In this document: positions 14,984-59,782 of the stretch, piece by piece
Layout of the letters: each line of letters opens with the position of its first letter
How positions within the stretch are numbered: the stretch's first letter is position 1
Position numbers and translations under genes: made by a program
Source of the DNA: Candidatus Poribacteria bacterium
GTDB lineage: Bacteria; Poribacteria; WGA-4E; WGA-3G
Direction: 5' to 3'
DNA: 64,000 bases
Assembly (NCBI GenBank): GCA_022823085.1
Contig: JAJDXV010000013.1
Location: 1 to 64,000, forward strand
Notes under the pieces: generated by a model
What the model saw: the letters and a program-made list of their open reading frames with translations, nothing else
What the model was told of the DNA's origin: nothing
The model's database searches: none

Positions 14984-15104
14984 AGGACTTACGCATGCTG
15001 CTCTTTTGTAGCATAACCTGTTAGGTTGTGCCACGAGAACATCTATGTTTTTTTAGAGTTCTCCCTCTAACAGAGCGTCATATCGTCAAAATTACGTAAG
15101 TCCT
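14984..15104 (-). mobile_element. MITE copy 1 (inverted orientation)
   Basis: Terminal inverted repeats AGGACTTACGCA.../...TACGTAAGTCCT bound 121 bp with no coding capacity. Read on the minus strand it aligns end to end with copies at 54.0 and 59.7 kb. It carries the internal hairpin AACCT-AAC-AGGTT. With the gene remnant before it, it fills the gap 14806-15130. Confidence 0.8.
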
Positions 15105-26800: not shown

Positions 26801-27220
26801 CTTCGCGATGAGCCCTGACATAATTGTTTTACCCGCGCCCGGATCATCAGCGATAAGGAAGCGAATACGCGGTTGCTTGATAACTTGCCATACCGCTTCA
26901 ATCTGGTGTGGCAGCGGATCAACTTTAGAGACACTAATAGCAAGGGTTGGATTGTAGAGCGCAGCATATCGATACCGTTTCGCCTCAAGCGCAAGGAAAG
27001 CACAGCGTGCCTTGCCAGTAAAATCTACTTGTGACTGCACAACCTGCAATTTGTTTGCTTCCGTTGCTGTGATTTCCTCGTTGATAGGTAGTTGTGAATT
27101 TGTTAGGGTACCGACGATATGAAAACTACCGTCAGGAAGTGGCTGGTAAGCAAAAATTTGGACAGGTTCGGACCATAGGGGGCCTTCAATTATTGTGCCA
27201 TAGGTGATATTAGAAGTCAT
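23864..27220 (-). CDS. SNF2-type helicase with C-terminal DUF3883 domain
   Basis: An 1118-aa superfamily 2 ATPase. Helicase motifs in order: LPHQIEAVWQ, ADDPGAGKTIM (Walker A), VDEAHKM (II), LFLTATPHRGD (III), IFTEYFDT (IV), ATEAAGEGINLQ (V) and QRMGRIHRYGQ (VI). A coiled coil is predicted around 880-980. A C-terminal DUF3883 nuclease-like domain follows (GFDLRSKTPDGKIRCIEVKARS, with D/E-x-K). Such proteins resemble DISARM DrmD-type and other defence helicases that act on foreign DNA. The ATG at 27220 overlaps the copA TGA (ATGA) and has GGAGAA upstream; the track's GTG at 27232 is less likely. Confidence 0.88.
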   Translation of the reverse strand: MTSNITYGTIIEGPLWSEPVQIFAYQPLPDGSFHIVGTLTNSQLPINEEITATEANKLQVVQSQVDFTGKARCAFLALEAKRYRYAALYNPTLAISVSKVDPLPHQIEAVWQVIKQPRIRFLIADDPGAGKTIMSGLIAKELKLRNQVKRILIVSPGHLVTQWTQEMKVKFEENFTQVTRGLVNAYPHENVWNREQQLITSMDFARQDEIRGTIANTHFDLIIVDEAHKMAAYQYGDKTDKTKRYELGECLSNSTTHLLFLTATPHRGDPENFRLFLDLLEPGFFADATQIRESINNRDNPLFIRRVKEDLKDFEGRKLFLPRHVQTKPFRLGAESEREMELYNALSEYIREQYNRFSEDSQKRNNIAFALVILQRRLASSTHALCISLQRRQKRLTELLESVTLQVDTAPTEQQRDEIEDLSEAERWEREQQWEVLSVAENREELEDEIETLKHLERNAQQIIDSEKEIKLQQLKKALDELNGQHPNEKILIFTEYFDTLDYLAQKVEAWGFSVSVIHGKMPHEKRVKTQQTFEEETQILIATEAAGEGINLQFCHLMINYDLPWNPNRLEQRMGRIHRYGQKKEVHVINLVASDTREGAVFNRLFAKLDTIRDALGRDRVYDVIGELFPKRNLAQLMLEAAASTRDHAQLLDEIEASLDPEQLDLFTDFNQDTLVSPFINLPQVNELQQKAREHGLIPEYTREFFRKTLEIHNAQLRQRGDEFFSIPRIPTQIVRMSQDEQFRQMYPSVVGKKYAKVTFDKAQASTDSSIEFISFGHPLFEATLRYVEQEYTEDLKAGSCFEDPDAKFNGVIAFYEGEIRDGTDTVTGKQLFSFYLPKNSETVERINPVLIWDFQESEVDPTSEPIQIQELEAKVSSELRFHLDQYKQELTEERKRQVAIKRRYGIASLEQLILKLDGELLELGTRSESGEDVRRATQNKQQQKHHYEGEKEKLEKSCRQEVTLSRKPPTFVGAIRVRPATDGIETKPAMHNRLEIEQIGMERATCYEKAQNCTVEDVSAENLGFDLRSKTPDGKIRCIEVKARSDRAPIVLTSNEWFRAKQLKDDYFLYVVLNAATQPELYIIQNPAEQISAVRQVTEVRYQVPLSEITGSGELI

Positions 27221-29442
27221 GATTTTCTCCACTGCAGCCGTAGACTATTTAGCACGACGGATACGCTGCTAAATGCCATTGCAAACGCTGCGAGCATGGG
27301 GTGTAGTTCCCGGAACATCATCGGTACGGATGGTAACGGATAAAGCACGCCTGCTGCAATAGGGATCAATAGCACATTGTAGAAGAATGCCCAGAAAAGG
27401 TTCTGTTTAATCGTACGCATCGTTGTTCGGCTGAGCCGAATTGCATCGGGGAGTCCACGCAAATCGCTGTGCATGAGGGTCACGTGTGCTGTCTCCCTTG
27501 CAATATCGGTGCCTGTGCCGAGCGAGATGCCGATGTCGGCTTGTGCCAATGCGGGGGTGTCGTTAATGCCGTCGCCTACCATCGCGACGAGTCCACTATT
27601 TTCCGCTTGTAACTTTTTAACGGCTGCCGCTTTATCTTCGGGTTTGAGTTCTGCCATGACATCGCTAATCTGCGCAGCCTTGGCGATCGCATCAGCCGTA
27701 ACGCGGTTATCCCCTGTCATCATTGTTACCGTACATCCAAGTTCGTAGAGTTCCGCGACCGCAGCTTGTGCTTCCGATTTCAACGTGTCGGCGACCGCCA
27801 GAAGTCCAACAACGTGCCCATCAACAGCGACCCATAAGACGGTTTTCGCCTCGGTCTGTAAACGTTCTGCTGCTTCTTCAAATCTCCTTGTCTGGATATT
27901 GTGTTGTTGCATTAAGGATAAATTGCCGATGATGACACTGCTTTCACCGACTTGTGCAGTGATACCGTGCCCAGTGACGGCTTCAAACTGATCCGGTGTA
28001 GCGATGTCCAATCCACGTTCCTTAGCGGCTTGAACAACTGCTTTTCCGATGGGATGCTCACTGCCACGCTCTGCAGCAGCAGATAGTTGTAGGAGTTCCG
28101 ATTCATCTTGATCCGTGAGAATATCGGTAAGTATGAGTTTTCCTTCTGTCAAGGTGCCTGTTTTATCGAGAACGATTGTGGTTAATCCGCCTGCGCGTTC
28201 GAGTGCTTCGCCGTTTCGGAAGAGGATGCCGCGCTGCGCACCGATACCGGTTCCCATCATGACAGCAGTCGGCGTGGCGAGTCCCAAGGCACAAGGACAA
28301 GCTGTAACAAGGATTGCAACGAGACGGAGCATTGCCGGTGTGAATCCTGCGCCAATGACGAACCACCACACGAGAAATGTCACAACGGCAATCGCGGTAA
28401 CGATAGGTACAAACACATTTGTGACTGCGTCGGCAGCGCGTTGGATAGGGGGTTTGCTCTGTTGTGTCGTGTATACCAATCGGACAAGTCGTGAAAGGGC
28501 TGTTTCGGCACCGACGTGCGTGGCTTCGATTGTGAGCATCCCACTCTGGTTCATCGTGGCCGCGGTCACAGGGTCGCTCGGTCCCTTATCCGCAGGTAGG
28601 CTTTCTCCGGTGAAGACGCTTTCGTCAATGGCACTTTTGCCGCTGCGGACTACGCCATCAACTGGAATGCTTTCGCCGGGACGAACTATTAGGACATCTC
28701 CTACACCGACCTGCTCAATGGGGATTTGTTGTTCTTCGCCGTTTTTTAGGCGACAGGCTGTTTTGGGGGCAAGTTGCGGGAGTTTCTTGAGGGCTGCGTT
28801 TATCTTACCTTTGGCGCGTGCTTCGAGAAGTTTTCCTAACTTAATCAACGTAACGATAACTGCGGCTGTCTCAAAATAGACGTGTGTGCCGAAGCGTTCT
28901 CCCGCGCCCGCGGTTAGGGCAATCGTTACGACGAGGCTATAGAGAAACGCGACCGATGAACCCATAGCGACGAGTACATCCATATTGGCGGATCGGTTGC
29001 GCAGTGCCTTAAAACCGCCGATGTAATAGTCCCATGCAACATACCCCTGCACTGGGAGTGCTAAGCCGAACATGAGCCAGTTAACCCAGTGTGCAGATGC
29101 CCACTCACCGATCAGGTTCATATCTCTACCCATGCTGATGAGGAAAAGTGGGAGCGTGAAGATGACCCCGACAGTGAATTGCAGCTTCTGTCGTCGGAAT
29201 TCTGCAGCGCGCGCTTCATCTTCTTCATCTTCATCGACAACATCAAAACCGAGGTCTCGAATTTTATCGACAATAGCAGCTTCAGTAAGGGTGGTTGTCT
29301 CGAAGGTAACCGCGGCATGTTCGGTGGCGAGGCTGACTTCTGCGGCAAGTATACCCTCCATCTTTTTAAGATGCCGCGTGATGGTGCTTGTACAGTTTTC
29401 GCAGTGCATGCCGGTGATGGGGAGGTTAATTTGGTGTTCCAT
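27217..29442 (-). CDS. copA: Copper-translocating P1B-type ATPase
   Basis: A 741-aa ATPase exporting Cu(I) across the inner membrane. A single N-terminal HMA domain has GMHCENCTSTITRH. Eight membrane helices carry the CPC ion-binding motif (ACPCALGLATPTAVM). Phosphorylation motif DKTGTLTEG, then GDNRVTADAIA, GDGINDTPALAQADIG and HP (SEHPIGKA) are all present. The real start is ATG 29442; the track's extension lies in upstream sequence. A 10-bp inverted repeat 50 bp upstream may terminate the preceding gene or bind a regulator. Its stop overlaps the helicase start, an odd pairing of metal export with a defence-type gene. Confidence 0.95.
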   Translation of the reverse strand: MEHQINLPITGMHCENCTSTITRHLKKMEGILAAEVSLATEHAAVTFETTTLTEAAIVDKIRDLGFDVVDEDEEDEARAAEFRRQKLQFTVGVIFTLPLFLISMGRDMNLIGEWASAHWVNWLMFGLALPVQGYVAWDYYIGGFKALRNRSANMDVLVAMGSSVAFLYSLVVTIALTAGAGERFGTHVYFETAAVIVTLIKLGKLLEARAKGKINAALKKLPQLAPKTACRLKNGEEQQIPIEQVGVGDVLIVRPGESIPVDGVVRSGKSAIDESVFTGESLPADKGPSDPVTAATMNQSGMLTIEATHVGAETALSRLVRLVYTTQQSKPPIQRAADAVTNVFVPIVTAIAVVTFLVWWFVIGAGFTPAMLRLVAILVTACPCALGLATPTAVMMGTGIGAQRGILFRNGEALERAGGLTTIVLDKTGTLTEGKLILTDILTDQDESELLQLSAAAERGSEHPIGKAVVQAAKERGLDIATPDQFEAVTGHGITAQVGESSVIIGNLSLMQQHNIQTRRFEEAAERLQTEAKTVLWVAVDGHVVGLLAVADTLKSEAQAAVAELYELGCTVTMMTGDNRVTADAIAKAAQISDVMAELKPEDKAAAVKKLQAENSGLVAMVGDGINDTPALAQADIGISLGTGTDIARETAHVTLMHSDLRGLPDAIRLSRTTMRTIKQNLFWAFFYNVLLIPIAAGVLYPLPSVPMMFRELHPMLAAFAMAFSSVSVVLNSLRLQWRKS

Positions 29443-29490
29443 TTTTTTTCTGCTCCACGCTGGGCACCGCTCCAAATGTAAAGCAAAGAC

Positions 29491-29516: not shown

Positions 29517-29528
29517 CGTTGGATACCT

Positions 29529-29554
29529 GCCACAGACTAACAGTCTATGCTACA
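29529..29554. repeat. Solo copy of the MITE internal hairpin
   Basis: GCCACAGACTAACAGTCTATGCTACA matches the hairpin inside the 54-kb MITE copy but with AGACT/AGTCT in place of AGGCT/AGCCT, so pairing is kept. No terminal repeats flank it. Confidence 0.65.
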
Positions 29555-29565
29555 GGACCTCACTT

Positions 29566-30534
29566 TTATCCTAAGTGTACAGGTAGCCCTGTTTCCAGAG
29601 ATTCGTTGGCAGCGATGGACAAAATAGCGGTTTTCGCGGCATCGGCGTACGGGGATCGGATTGCACTGCCGTCTCCGGTGCGAACAGCCTCAATGAAAGT
29701 CCGATCCATATCAATTGTGCAATTGTTCTCCGGGTTCCACGTTGTTTTTTCATCGGCTGTAGAAAGCACAAGGGCACGACGGAGATGATACTCAAGCGAA
29801 CCGTCTTCACAGAAGATGTCTAACCCGGAACGGCGCATACCATTCGTTGTGAAGCATGCAGAGAACATGATACCAAAAACACCGCTCTCAAATTGTAAGG
29901 AGACCGCGGATGCTTCTTCAATATCGTAGTCGGTATCTGGAATAAGATCGTAGCGTGCGACGGCGTAGACGGTTTTGACTTCTCCGAAGAGGTATCTCGC
30001 CATATCAAATTCGTGTGTTGTCTGCTCCATGAGTTGTCCGCCGGATTTCGCTTTCTCGCGCCACCATCCACCCGGCATGCCGCCCATCCAGTAGCCCATG
30101 AAGAATCCGACACGTCGAGAAGCGAGGAGTTCCTGCGCTTTGTCGATAATATCGAGGTAGCGTTCCTGATACCCGGTGGCAGTAATGATGCCTTTGTCTT
30201 CAATCTCTGCTGCGATCTCTTTTGCGTCGTCAGCATCCATGTGTACCGGCTTTTCTACAAACATCGGCAGCCCAGCGTTGATAACAGCGCGTTCAGGTGC
30301 GCCGTGTGCGAAGGGTGGGATCGAGATATAGACAGCATCCAATTCTTCGCTTGCGAGCATCTGGTTGTAGTCTGCGTAAGCTTTGCCACCATATTGTGTA
30401 ACAGCGCGTTCTGCTTTTTCAACAACAATATCACAAAAGGCGACGAACTTTGCGCCGCCGATCTCAGTTAATTCGCGTAGATGGCGGTTCATGTTGCCAC
30501 CTGTACCGATAAAGCCTAATCTAACATCTGACAT
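29566..30534 (-). CDS. Gfo/Idh/MocA family NAD(P)-dependent oxidoreductase
   Basis: A 322-aa protein. The N-terminal Rossmann fold starts LGFIGTGGNMNRHLREL. The conserved catalytic-region block FVEKPVHMDADDAKE contains the EKP motif, followed by ATGYQERY and the C-terminal alpha/beta domain. The family oxidises or reduces sugars, inositols and related polyols; the substrate cannot be assigned. No sugar pathway genes are next to it. It ends before copA with an inverted repeat between them. Confidence 0.9.
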   Translation of the reverse strand: MSDVRLGFIGTGGNMNRHLRELTEIGGAKFVAFCDIVVEKAERAVTQYGGKAYADYNQMLASEELDAVYISIPPFAHGAPERAVINAGLPMFVEKPVHMDADDAKEIAAEIEDKGIITATGYQERYLDIIDKAQELLASRRVGFFMGYWMGGMPGGWWREKAKSGGQLMEQTTHEFDMARYLFGEVKTVYAVARYDLIPDTDYDIEEASAVSLQFESGVFGIMFSACFTTNGMRRSGLDIFCEDGSLEYHLRRALVLSTADEKTTWNPENNCTIDMDRTFIEAVRTGDGSAIRSPYADAAKTAILSIAANESLETGLPVHLG

Positions 30535-32129: not shown

Positions 32130-32223
32130 CAGTTACCAGTTAACAGTTAACAGTTACCAGAAAAGAGATATTGTGTTATCCGCACACCTCTTAACTGGGT
32201 ACTGGCCACTGGTTACTGGTAAC
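32130..32223. repeat. Foldback repeat of CAGTTAAC/ACTGGTTA units
   Basis: The left arm CAGTTACCAGTTAACAGTTAACAGTTACCAG and right arm ACTGGGTACTGGCCACTGGTTACTGGTAACT flank a core AAAAGAGATATTGTGTTATCCGCACACCTCTTA. It is nearly the same as the element at 52.4 kb. Confidence 0.75.
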
Positions 32224-32233
32224 TTCACCGCAA

Positions 32234-43985: not shown

Positions 43986-43992
43986 ATTTTTA

Positions 43993-44045
43993 ATTATTAA
44001 ATTTGGTCACCGTTCCACTTCGTTTCACGGTGGTTTCCGGTTAAG
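43993..44045. repeat. 53-bp repeat, copy A
   Basis: ATTATTAAATTTGGTCACCG..., with internal CACCGT/ACGGTG hairpin. About 47 of 53 bases match copy B at 53966-54018. Both copies lie directly before a start codon (nuoF here, trkA there). Confidence 0.75.
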
Positions 44046-52443: not shown

Positions 52444-52552
52444 CAGTTACCAGTAACCAGTTAACAGTTAACAGTTTCCAGAAAAGAGATGTTGTGTTAT
52501 CCGAACGCCTCTTAACTGACCACTGGTTACTGGCCACTGGTTACTGGTAATT
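52444..52552. repeat. Foldback repeat between trkA and trkH
   Basis: Same family as 32130-32223: arms CAGTTACCAGTAACCAGTTAACAGTTAAC... and ACTGACCACTGGTTACTGG..., around an AAAAGAGATGTTGTGTTATCCGAACGCCTCTTA core. Confidence 0.75.
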
Positions 52553-53957: not shown

Positions 53958-53965
53958 CTTTTTAA

Positions 53966-54018
53966 ATTATTAAATCTGGTCACCGTTCCACTACGTTCTA
54001 CGGTGGTTTTCGATTAAG
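53966..54018. repeat. 53-bp repeat, copy B
   Basis: ATTATTAAATCTGGTCACCG..., with CACCGT/ACGGTG hairpin. It ends one base before MITE copy 2, forming a composite intergenic block. Confidence 0.75.
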
Positions 54019-54019
54019 C

Positions 54020-54138
54020 AGGACTTACGCAATTTTAACTGCAGCCCGTTCTGTTAGATGAGATTTCTTGGAAAACACAGCGTTATAGTGCCACAGGCTA
54101 ACAGCCTATGCTACAAAAGAGCCGCATGCGTAAGTCCT
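54020..54138. mobile_element. MITE copy 2
   Basis: 119 bp with terminal inverted repeats AGGACTTACGCA/TGCGTAAGTCCT, no ORF, and internal hairpin AGGCT-AAC-AGCCT. It fills most of the gcvP-trkA gap. Confidence 0.85.
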
Positions 54139-54180
54139 ATTAAGTTAACCGAATTTGAGTGATGTAAATTTTGTTTTCCT

Positions 54181-57518: not shown

Positions 57519-59516
57519 CTACCGTTTGGTTTCTAATTCCTTTGCTTTTTCAAAGTCAATCTGCGCGGCTTCCGCTTGCCCAAGGTCCTGCTTTGAGTGT
57601 CCGCGAAGGTGGTAAGCAGTCGGATCGTCAGGTTTGAGTTCAATAGCGTGTGTAAAGTCTTCTATCGCACTCTCATGGTCACCAAAAGCTGCCTTTGCTA
57701 TACCGCGATTCTTGTAGAAATAGGCACTTTTAGGGTAGAGTTGAATAGCTTTATCGTAATCGGTCATTGCGCCTTCATGGTCGCCGAGTGCGGATTTCGC
57801 CATTCCGCGGTGATTATAAGCGACAGAATCATCAGGTTTAAGTTCAATAGCGTGCGTATAATCTTCCATCGCGCCGGTATAATCCCCCTGTTCTTGTTTC
57901 GCCCAGCCGCGATTATTATAGGCGTTACTATCCTCGGGACTGAGTTTGATAGCGTGCGTATAATCTTCTATCGCCCCCTTGTAGTCACCAAGTCTCATTT
58001 TCACCCCTGCCCGGTTTTTGTACGCATAGGCATCATCAGGTTTGAGTTCTATAGCACGCGTGAAATCCGCCATCGCGCCGGTGTGATCTCCGTGTTCTAT
58101 TTTTGCCCAACCGCGATTATTATATGCGTAATAGGCATAGGTATCGTTAGGTGTAATCGTAACTGTTGATAAACCGTGCTCGGTATACGTTTGATAGGTA
58201 AAGGAGCCGTCCTTAAGTTTTTTGATAGTTTGATTGTAATCTTCGATCGCACCACTATAGTCACCGAGTTTGCGTTTTATATCGGCGCGATCGTTATATG
58301 TAAACACATTCTTTGGGTTTAGCTTGATAGCCTTATTGTAGTCTTCTATTGCGCCCGCATCATCTCCAAGTTCAGCCTTTACTTTTCCGCGTTTCTTGTA
58401 GGCTTCGGCATCCTCAGGATTCAGCTGAATAGCTTGATTGTAGTCTTCGATCGCACCAGCATGGTCACCACTTTTGCGCTTCGCGTCCGCACTTGTCCTG
58501 TATGTGAATGCATCCTTCGGATTTAGCTTGAGAGCTTGATTATAGTCGTCCATCGCACTGGCATGATTACCCAATTTGCGTTTTGCCTCTGCCCGTTTCT
58601 TGTATGCGGATGCGTCATCAGGGTTTAATTTTATCGCTCGATTATAGTCTTCTATTGCTGCTTGATAATCTTCAAGTTTCACTTTCGATTTTGCCCTAAA
58701 TTTATAGATTTCAGCATCGTTAGGGGTTAGTTCAATCGCTTTATTGAAATTTTCGAGTGCCCCGTCAAAATCGTTGTCATAATATTTTTGCTTCCCTTGC
58801 TCGAAGTAGATATAGGCGCGGATATCGTTTCGCTTCTTCCATTGATCCAAAGATTCCGTTGAAGTGGCACCAGCAAGCAATGCCTTGATTGCGTTTACAG
58901 GACTATTACCAGGGTCATGGCCATAGTGGATTCCGATGATTTCTCCTTTACTGTTTAGCACTGGGCTGCCACTGTTTCCCGGGTACGCTTCAGCTGTTGT
59001 CTGAAACCGTTTATCATTTTCTCGTATTTTTTCAATAACGCCTTCGGTGATCGTATACCCTCTTTCTGGGAATCCGACGAGGAAAACAGGATCACCGATT
59101 TCGAGCATATCACTGTCGCCTAAAGGCAGCGGGACACCTTTACCTTTCACTTTTAGGATGGCGATGTCGTACGCAATATCAAACGCCACAACACCTTCTA
59201 CTAACCAGATTGTTTCTTTGTGACTTAGTTTTGCAGTCATAAGTCCGGATACACCTACGGCAACATGGAAATTTGTTGCAATTTTATCCGGTGCTATAAA
59301 GAATCCGGTGCCACCCCCTAATCCGAGATCAGATCCTCTGAAGGCAAACCCGACTAAGCGGACTGTGGACGCTTTTGCTTTATCAGATATTAAGTCAGTT
59401 TCCGTTAGCTGCTCGGCTTCTTGGGCAGTTTCCTGTGCGCAAACTGTGGTGTTAGAGAGTGAAAGAAATAACCCCAGAGCGAAGACAGATAACAAAAATC
59501 TTGTGTAATGCCTCAT
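57519..59516 (-). CDS. Secreted trypsin-like serine protease with TPR repeats
   Basis: A 665-aa protein. Signal peptide (about 1-27, ending CAQE), then an HtrA-like protease domain with His in ATNFHVAVG, Asp in AYDIAILKVKG and Ser in YPGNSGSPVLNSKGEIIG. From about residue 235 to the end about eleven TPR units follow (EDYNRAIKLNPDDA type). Probably periplasmic or surface, with TPRs recruiting partners. Substrate unknown. It lies between the Uma2 gene and gcvH, separated from Uma2 by a MITE. Confidence 0.88.
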   Translation of the reverse strand: MRHYTRFLLSVFALGLFLSLSNTTVCAQETAQEAEQLTETDLISDKAKASTVRLVGFAFRGSDLGLGGGTGFFIAPDKIATNFHVAVGVSGLMTAKLSHKETIWLVEGVVAFDIAYDIAILKVKGKGVPLPLGDSDMLEIGDPVFLVGFPERGYTITEGVIEKIRENDKRFQTTAEAYPGNSGSPVLNSKGEIIGIHYGHDPGNSPVNAIKALLAGATSTESLDQWKKRNDIRAYIYFEQGKQKYYDNDFDGALENFNKAIELTPNDAEIYKFRAKSKVKLEDYQAAIEDYNRAIKLNPDDASAYKKRAEAKRKLGNHASAMDDYNQALKLNPKDAFTYRTSADAKRKSGDHAGAIEDYNQAIQLNPEDAEAYKKRGKVKAELGDDAGAIEDYNKAIKLNPKNVFTYNDRADIKRKLGDYSGAIEDYNQTIKKLKDGSFTYQTYTEHGLSTVTITPNDTYAYYAYNNRGWAKIEHGDHTGAMADFTRAIELKPDDAYAYKNRAGVKMRLGDYKGAIEDYTHAIKLSPEDSNAYNNRGWAKQEQGDYTGAMEDYTHAIELKPDDSVAYNHRGMAKSALGDHEGAMTDYDKAIQLYPKSAYFYKNRGIAKAAFGDHESAIEDFTHAIELKPDDPTAYHLRGHSKQDLGQAEAAQIDFEKAKELETKR

Positions 59517-59663: not shown

Positions 59664-59782
59664 AGGATTTACGCAATTTTGGCTGTAGGCGGTTTTGTTA
59701 GATGAGATTTCTCGGAAAACATAGCATTTTGGTGGCACAAACTGGAAGTTTGTGGTACAAAAGAGCATCATGTGTAAATCCT
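59664..59782. mobile_element. MITE copy 3
   Basis: 119 bp with terminal repeats AGGATTTACGCA/TGTGTAAATCCT. The ends differ from copy 2 by the same base on each side, so they still pair. Internal hairpin AAACT-GGA-AGTTT. It lies between the protease and Uma2 genes. Confidence 0.8.

Follow-up and report, generated by a model that had tools for sequence, protein, structure and literature searches.

Repetitive extragenic palindromes (REPs) with a GTAG foot, together with their REP-associated tyrosine transposases (RAYTs), are the closest described counterparts of the element analyzed here, a short hairpin in a 64,000-nucleotide stretch of Candidatus Poribacteria DNA (the window; GenBank assembly GCA_022823085.1, contig JAJDXV010000013.1, positions 1 to 64,000). 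Such REPs are short hairpins present in hundreds of extragenic copies; their RAYT gene is flanked by the repeat, and some genomes have REPs but no RAYT (PMC2817692, PMC3733652, PMC3686654). Their copies are reported to be solo or grouped, with stem letters that vary in complementary fashion and with G.T pairs (PMC3733652); the preserved pairing was earlier read as selection for complementary mutations (PMC2817692), and loss of the RAYT with the REPs remaining has been described in other bacteria (PMC3686654). Miniature inverted-repeat transposable elements (MITEs) derived from insertion sequences (ISs), such as Nezha, Correia, and RUP, are short and non-coding, share terminal inverted repeats with a full IS, and have target duplications (PMC3733652).

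The Poribacterial hairpin has these features of GTAG REPs, and many of its copies lie within a different, unrelated transposon, a MITE of the IS-derived kind. Our results support its assignment as a REP element, scattered in hundreds through the genomes of sponge-associated Poribacteria. It differs from the described GTAG REPs in its host phylum, in a sequence family that we did not find described, and in the many copies fixed inside a DDE-type MITE; this MITE, in turn, differs from the known ones in its IS701-like parent and in having a REP at a fixed internal place. Because stem variation and RAYT loss have already been described for REPs, the family is new but its kind is known. In a limited search of the open-access literature we found no description of REPs in Poribacteria or of a REP nested in a DDE MITE. 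This REP/RAYT family, from a phylum of uncultured sponge symbionts, has apparently not been described before, and one of its stem positions samples all four Watson-Crick pairs. Very probably, the element is a REP with a GTAG foot and an imperfect single-strand hairpin. The enzyme that likely acts on it is a divergent RAYT, a single-strand transposase of the Y1/HUH type encoded by about half of the genus-mates sampled. Past RAYT activity in the lineage would have seeded the intergenic solo copies and tandem arrays, and one REP would have been captured by a 119-bp MITE with IS701-like DDE ends and then copied along with it. The sequences themselves show the element, its abundance, its covariation, its link to the RAYT, and the MITE with its parent IS; cutting and mobilization by the RAYT, the loss of that gene, and the cause of the maintained pairing are inferences.

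The hairpin, its copies, and its pairing

The element is ~24-27 nt long and consists of a GTAG foot, an 8-bp stem, and a 3-nt loop; the foot criterion used was a GTAG (or GTGG) tetranucleotide 5' of the hairpin. On the informative strand, which starts with GTAG and is the complement of the one given in the first-pass annotation, it reads GTAGCATA-nn-CT-GTT-AG-nn-TGTGC. That annotation had described four copies with complementary 5-bp stems. All four are present, and the 5-bp stem is the core of the 8-bp stem. The copy near copA had been called solo, and it does lie outside any MITE; the other three are inside MITE copies of 119-121 bp, at a fixed position 23 and 69 bp from the two ends:

29528..29554, minus strand: solo REP, stem type GA/TC (AGACT/AGTCT), GTAG foot at 29553-29550
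15007..15033, plus strand (opposite to the other copies): REP in MITE copy 1, stem type AC/GT (AACCT/AGGTT)
54089..54115, minus strand: REP in MITE copy 2, stem type GG/CC (AGGCT/AGCCT)
59733..59759, minus strand: REP in MITE copy 3, stem type AA/TT (AAACT/AGTTT), TTCC-type loop, GTAC foot

The genome to which the window belongs (5.2 Mb, 92% complete) was searched whole by pattern matching; genome-wide counts are strand matches at <=3 mismatches, in which a near-perfect palindrome is counted twice. The hairpin gave 149 + 129 = 278 strand matches and the same pattern reversed, used as a control, gave 2 + 1 = 3; its abundance is not due to chance. Site-level counts for this genome are based on 1.19 Mb of contigs (23%) that were read directly as stretches. 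These contain 77 distinct hairpin sites, approximately two-thirds of them inside the ~119-bp MITE and one-third solo. By a simple call of open reading frames (ORFs), these take up ~89% of the sequence, yet 25 of 27 solo copies are located outside them. Some solo copies form same-strand tandem arrays with a spacing of 33-41 bp upstream of genes. The foot is GTAG in 19 of the 27 solo copies (GTAC in 7 and GTCG in 1) and in 24 of 44 MITE-borne copies (GTAC in the other 20). The first-pass annotation had likened the hairpin to REP elements, and the foot tetranucleotide, the high copy number, the extragenic solo copies, and the tandem arrays all fit this comparison.

The hairpin was found in all 36 genus genomes searched and in 9 of 14 order-mates, and it was absent from all 10 searched genomes of other orders within the class; the named contigs that bear it belong to Candidatus Poribacteria. 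Copies sampled from loci of genus-mates are mostly of the solo type (84 of 100).

Pairing was assessed at 311 sites in a scan that left both sides of the two variable stem pairs free. Loci of relatives had been retrieved by patterns demanding R and Y at the outer variable pair, which leaves the inner pair as the only one free of bias in those loci; pairing played no part in the choice of the 71 sites in the window genome's own contigs. At 306 of the 311 sites the inner pair is Watson-Crick, and it takes all four forms (CG 102, AT 98, GC 70, and TA 36). In the window genome's own contigs, it is Watson-Crick at 70 of 71 sites and G.T at the other; for the outer pair, the Watson-Crick count is 68 of 71. 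Across 82 distinct sequences, 95% of stem cells are paired, and 89 cells are changed on both sides, compared with 26.7 +/- 3.7 in shuffles. Covariation scores 0.418, versus 0.188 shuffled and <=0.118 with the partner slid. Thus, the compensatory changes first noticed in four copies hold in the larger sample. At one stem position, T.G predominates when the GTAG strand is read, and the complement would have an A.C mismatch there; of 179 distinct copies, 148 fold better as the GTAG strand than as the complement.

RAYT genes in the genus

A RAYT had been predicted, and a cognate gene flanked by the same hairpins was indeed found in relatives. It belongs to a divergent subgroup of Y1/HUH transposases with a core of ~225-250 aa and conserved NHVH and YVLNNPVK motifs. 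Of 35 genus-mates, 17 have a gene of this subgroup, as do two order-mates (64% and 42% identity). The hairpin lies <=350 bp from the gene at 21 of 22 subgroup loci but at only 4 of 120 other Y1 loci (Fisher p = 4e-20); the sole exception among the former is the most distant member, from genome G049. The nearest downstream hairpin is on the gene strand at 18 of 19 RAYT loci, and the nearest upstream hairpin is on the opposite strand at 12 of 19, the remainder being GTAC types. Inverted REPs are accordingly found on both sides of the gene, with one flank missing or the orientation unclear in a minority of cases. The hairpin variant differs among RAYT clades. Genus genomes with the cognate RAYT have a median of 80 hairpin strand matches versus 52 in those without (p = 0.009). 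Some RAYT genes of the subgroup carry the hairpin in frame. At L409, L410, L414, L431, and other loci, the REP overlaps the 3' end of the RAYT gene, and the loop CTGTTAG supplies the TAG stop.

The subgroup profile matches a single solved structure, that of TnpA-REP (PDB 4ER8, E 1.7e-6), and the IS200 model scores only 13 bits on a subgroup member. The NHVH, WQ, and YI[LR][NQ]NP-like motifs are those listed for TnpA-REP subclass 2.7 (PMC6006769); the motif here is Y[VI]LNNP, which differs from subclasses 2.4 and 2.7, and the likeness is one of motifs. A structure predicted for the L149 protein without an alignment had a pLDDT (predicted local distance difference test) score of 41 and was not used.

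The genus carries several further RAYT/REP pairs with different REP sequences. At least five other RAYT types occur in the genus and order, each with its own REP (L269-L286, L316-L328, L359-L374); examples of these REPs are GTAGGTGCGGTTTCCTAACCGCACC, GTAGGAGCGAGCTGTGCTCGC, GTAGGCGCGGCATCTTGCCGCGC, and GTAGGTCGAGATTCACATCTCGAC. The RAYT of G008 (L325) was considered as a cognate, as two hairpin copies lie 143 and 372 bp downstream, but it was rejected: its own REP, GTGGGAGGGCTTTGTAAGCCC, directly flanks it, and its sister in G023 is likewise flanked by GTGGGAGGGCTTTGTAAGCCC and has no hairpin of the present type.

Searches of the genome that holds the window found no cognate RAYT, and its hairpins therefore look like orphans. 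The only Y1 gene in this genome (C85:24797) was rejected as a RAYT: it is part of an IS605 element, with tnpB following, and no such hairpin is nearby. The genome may have lost its RAYT, or the gene may lie in the missing 8%; an incomplete assembly would explain its absence just as simply, because the repeats that surround these genes are where assemblies break. The orphan REPs would have been spread mainly by the MITE.

The MITE and its IS701-like parent

The window contains three copies of the MITE:

14984..15104, plus strand: MITE copy 1, 121 bp, terminal inverted repeats AGGACTTACGCA
54020..54138, minus strand: MITE copy 2, 119 bp, TTAAG target duplication at 54014-54018 and 54140-54144
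59664..59782, minus strand: MITE copy 3, 119 bp, degenerate ends

Many complete MITE copies carry ~5-bp target duplications. At its ends, the MITE has the terminal sequences of an IS701-like DDE element (YAGGACTTACGCA); the same 12-13-bp ends are shared by a 430-bp deletion derivative and by IS fragments located where contigs end. As to an IS701-family transposase, a fragment matches NF049921 at 52 bits (cut-off 250), and no full-length copy is assembled. The parent is broken at the ends of G000 contigs C4, C111, C170, and C180, which suggests that several near-identical full copies were collapsed in assembly; sequence of the parent is also found at C86:7380-7809. The hairpins within the MITE were probably spread by the DDE transposase rather than by a RAYT.

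Maintenance of pairing and alternative explanations

The MITE body gives an independent family tree of the copies, so the REP-in-MITE arrangement offers a natural way to tell pairing that recognition by the transposase maintains from pairing that mutation bias maintains. Mapped on a tree of MITE bodies, which is poorly resolved, the inner pair requires at least 14 changes; fewer are demanded by the branches with good support. Hairpin types recur across different MITE bodies, older MITE hairpin lineages are symmetric, and the stem has been lengthened symmetrically in GGAGACC types. The newest differences, on near-identical MITE bodies, are one-sided: they are either insertions or chimeras of a short arm with a GGAGACC-type long arm, with breakpoints at the loop, apparently formed by exchange there. 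Judged from these sequences, the history of the stem fits one in which unpaired forms are lost or repaired, and it is compatible with selection, templated correction, or exchange.

Chimeric hairpins are found in G000 at C60:43662, C166:28829, C83:27679, and C85:15678, and at L223:3263. Six MITE copies (G000 C86:17395, C157:14999, C106:30921, C181:8946, and C157:35275; L170:2173) have a second repeat of 32 bp, GATGCACTTCGCATCTGGGCGAGTACGCCGCAA, inserted within the 5' arm of their REP, and a related sequence also follows the solo REP at C166:28500. Two MITE copies with an identical 32-bp insert in the stem have identical right-hand bodies; the MITE thus appears able to transpose even when its hairpin is broken.

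The first-pass annotation took the paired changes to mean that the structure is selected or maintained. Pairing is kept, but the data fit selection as well as processes that need none: correction of one arm templated by the other during replication, or recombination between copies that swaps whole hairpins. Such unselected change is a possible, though not the favored, source of the paired letters. The one-sided chimeras, the recurrence of hairpin types on different bodies, and the symmetric lengthening all speak for it; alone, however, it leaves the conserved foot, the fixed T.G pair, and the RAYT link unexplained. It concerns only how pairing is kept and is compatible with a REP mobilized by a RAYT, for which the stem letters would drift and the pairing stay because the transposase would read the structure and foot more than the exact stem sequence. 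It is hard to believe, by comparison, that the hairpin is an integral part of the MITE, such as a transposase-binding or replication structure, with solo copies representing decayed MITEs. Most copies in the window genome do occupy a fixed place in the MITE, but the solo copies have no trace of MITE ends at the set threshold, some stand in tandem arrays, the sampled copies of genus-mates are mainly solo, and copies flank RAYT genes. Moreover, no REP is present in the available ends of the IS701-like parent, and some MITEs share the ends yet lack a hairpin. A function at the RNA level (a transcript stabilizer, attenuator, or terminator), with pairing kept by selection on RNA, is very unlikely as the explanation, although the hairpin may have a secondary role of this kind. 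Both genes beside the solo copy at 29528-29554 have as their coding strand the GTAG strand, where the G.U wobble would form, and some solo arrays lie just upstream of genes. However, the hairpin has no Rfam match (the only Rfam matches in the window are two tRNAs), no T-run follows it at 29528-29554, solo copies occur in either orientation relative to genes, and the RAYT association accounts for its distribution.

Several observations weigh against a RAYT-mobilized REP. The cognate gene was not found in the window genome, and G033, the genus-mate with the most hairpin copies (426 strand matches), has no cognate RAYT that we could find. A subgroup member scores 64.9 bits against NCBIfam NF047646, below the cut-off of 80, and is also below the Pfam cut-offs; standard models thus leave this RAYT group below threshold. 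The GTAC-footed MITE copies (20 of 44) may be poor RAYT substrates, and five chimeric and six insert-bearing copies persist with pairing broken. A more speculative proposal, which we regard as rather doubtful, links the two systems: the MITE would spread live substrates, exchange mediated by the RAYT or by the hairpin would continually rewrite its REP at the fixed site, and the RAYT would be a distinct Poribacterial subgroup missed by current annotation models.

The sampled copies of G033 (loci L329-L358) are mostly solo. Several of them share longer flanks (AGAATCCGACAATAAATTTACAC...), which suggests that these belong to a larger composite repeat.

The solo REP of the window sits between two genes, given for context only:

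27217..29475, minus strand: heavy-metal P-type ATPase gene (copA-like)
29566..30534, minus strand: Gfo/Idh/MocA-type oxidoreductase gene

The window also contains two pairs of intergenic repeats, one of 95 bp with 86% identity (32130-32224 and 52451-52545) and one of 59 bp with 88% identity (43987-44045 and 53960-54018), the second member of which adjoins MITE copy 2. Positions 57519-59516 encode a protein in which a trypsin-like domain precedes many TPR repeats, the source of 102-bp repeats in the DNA.
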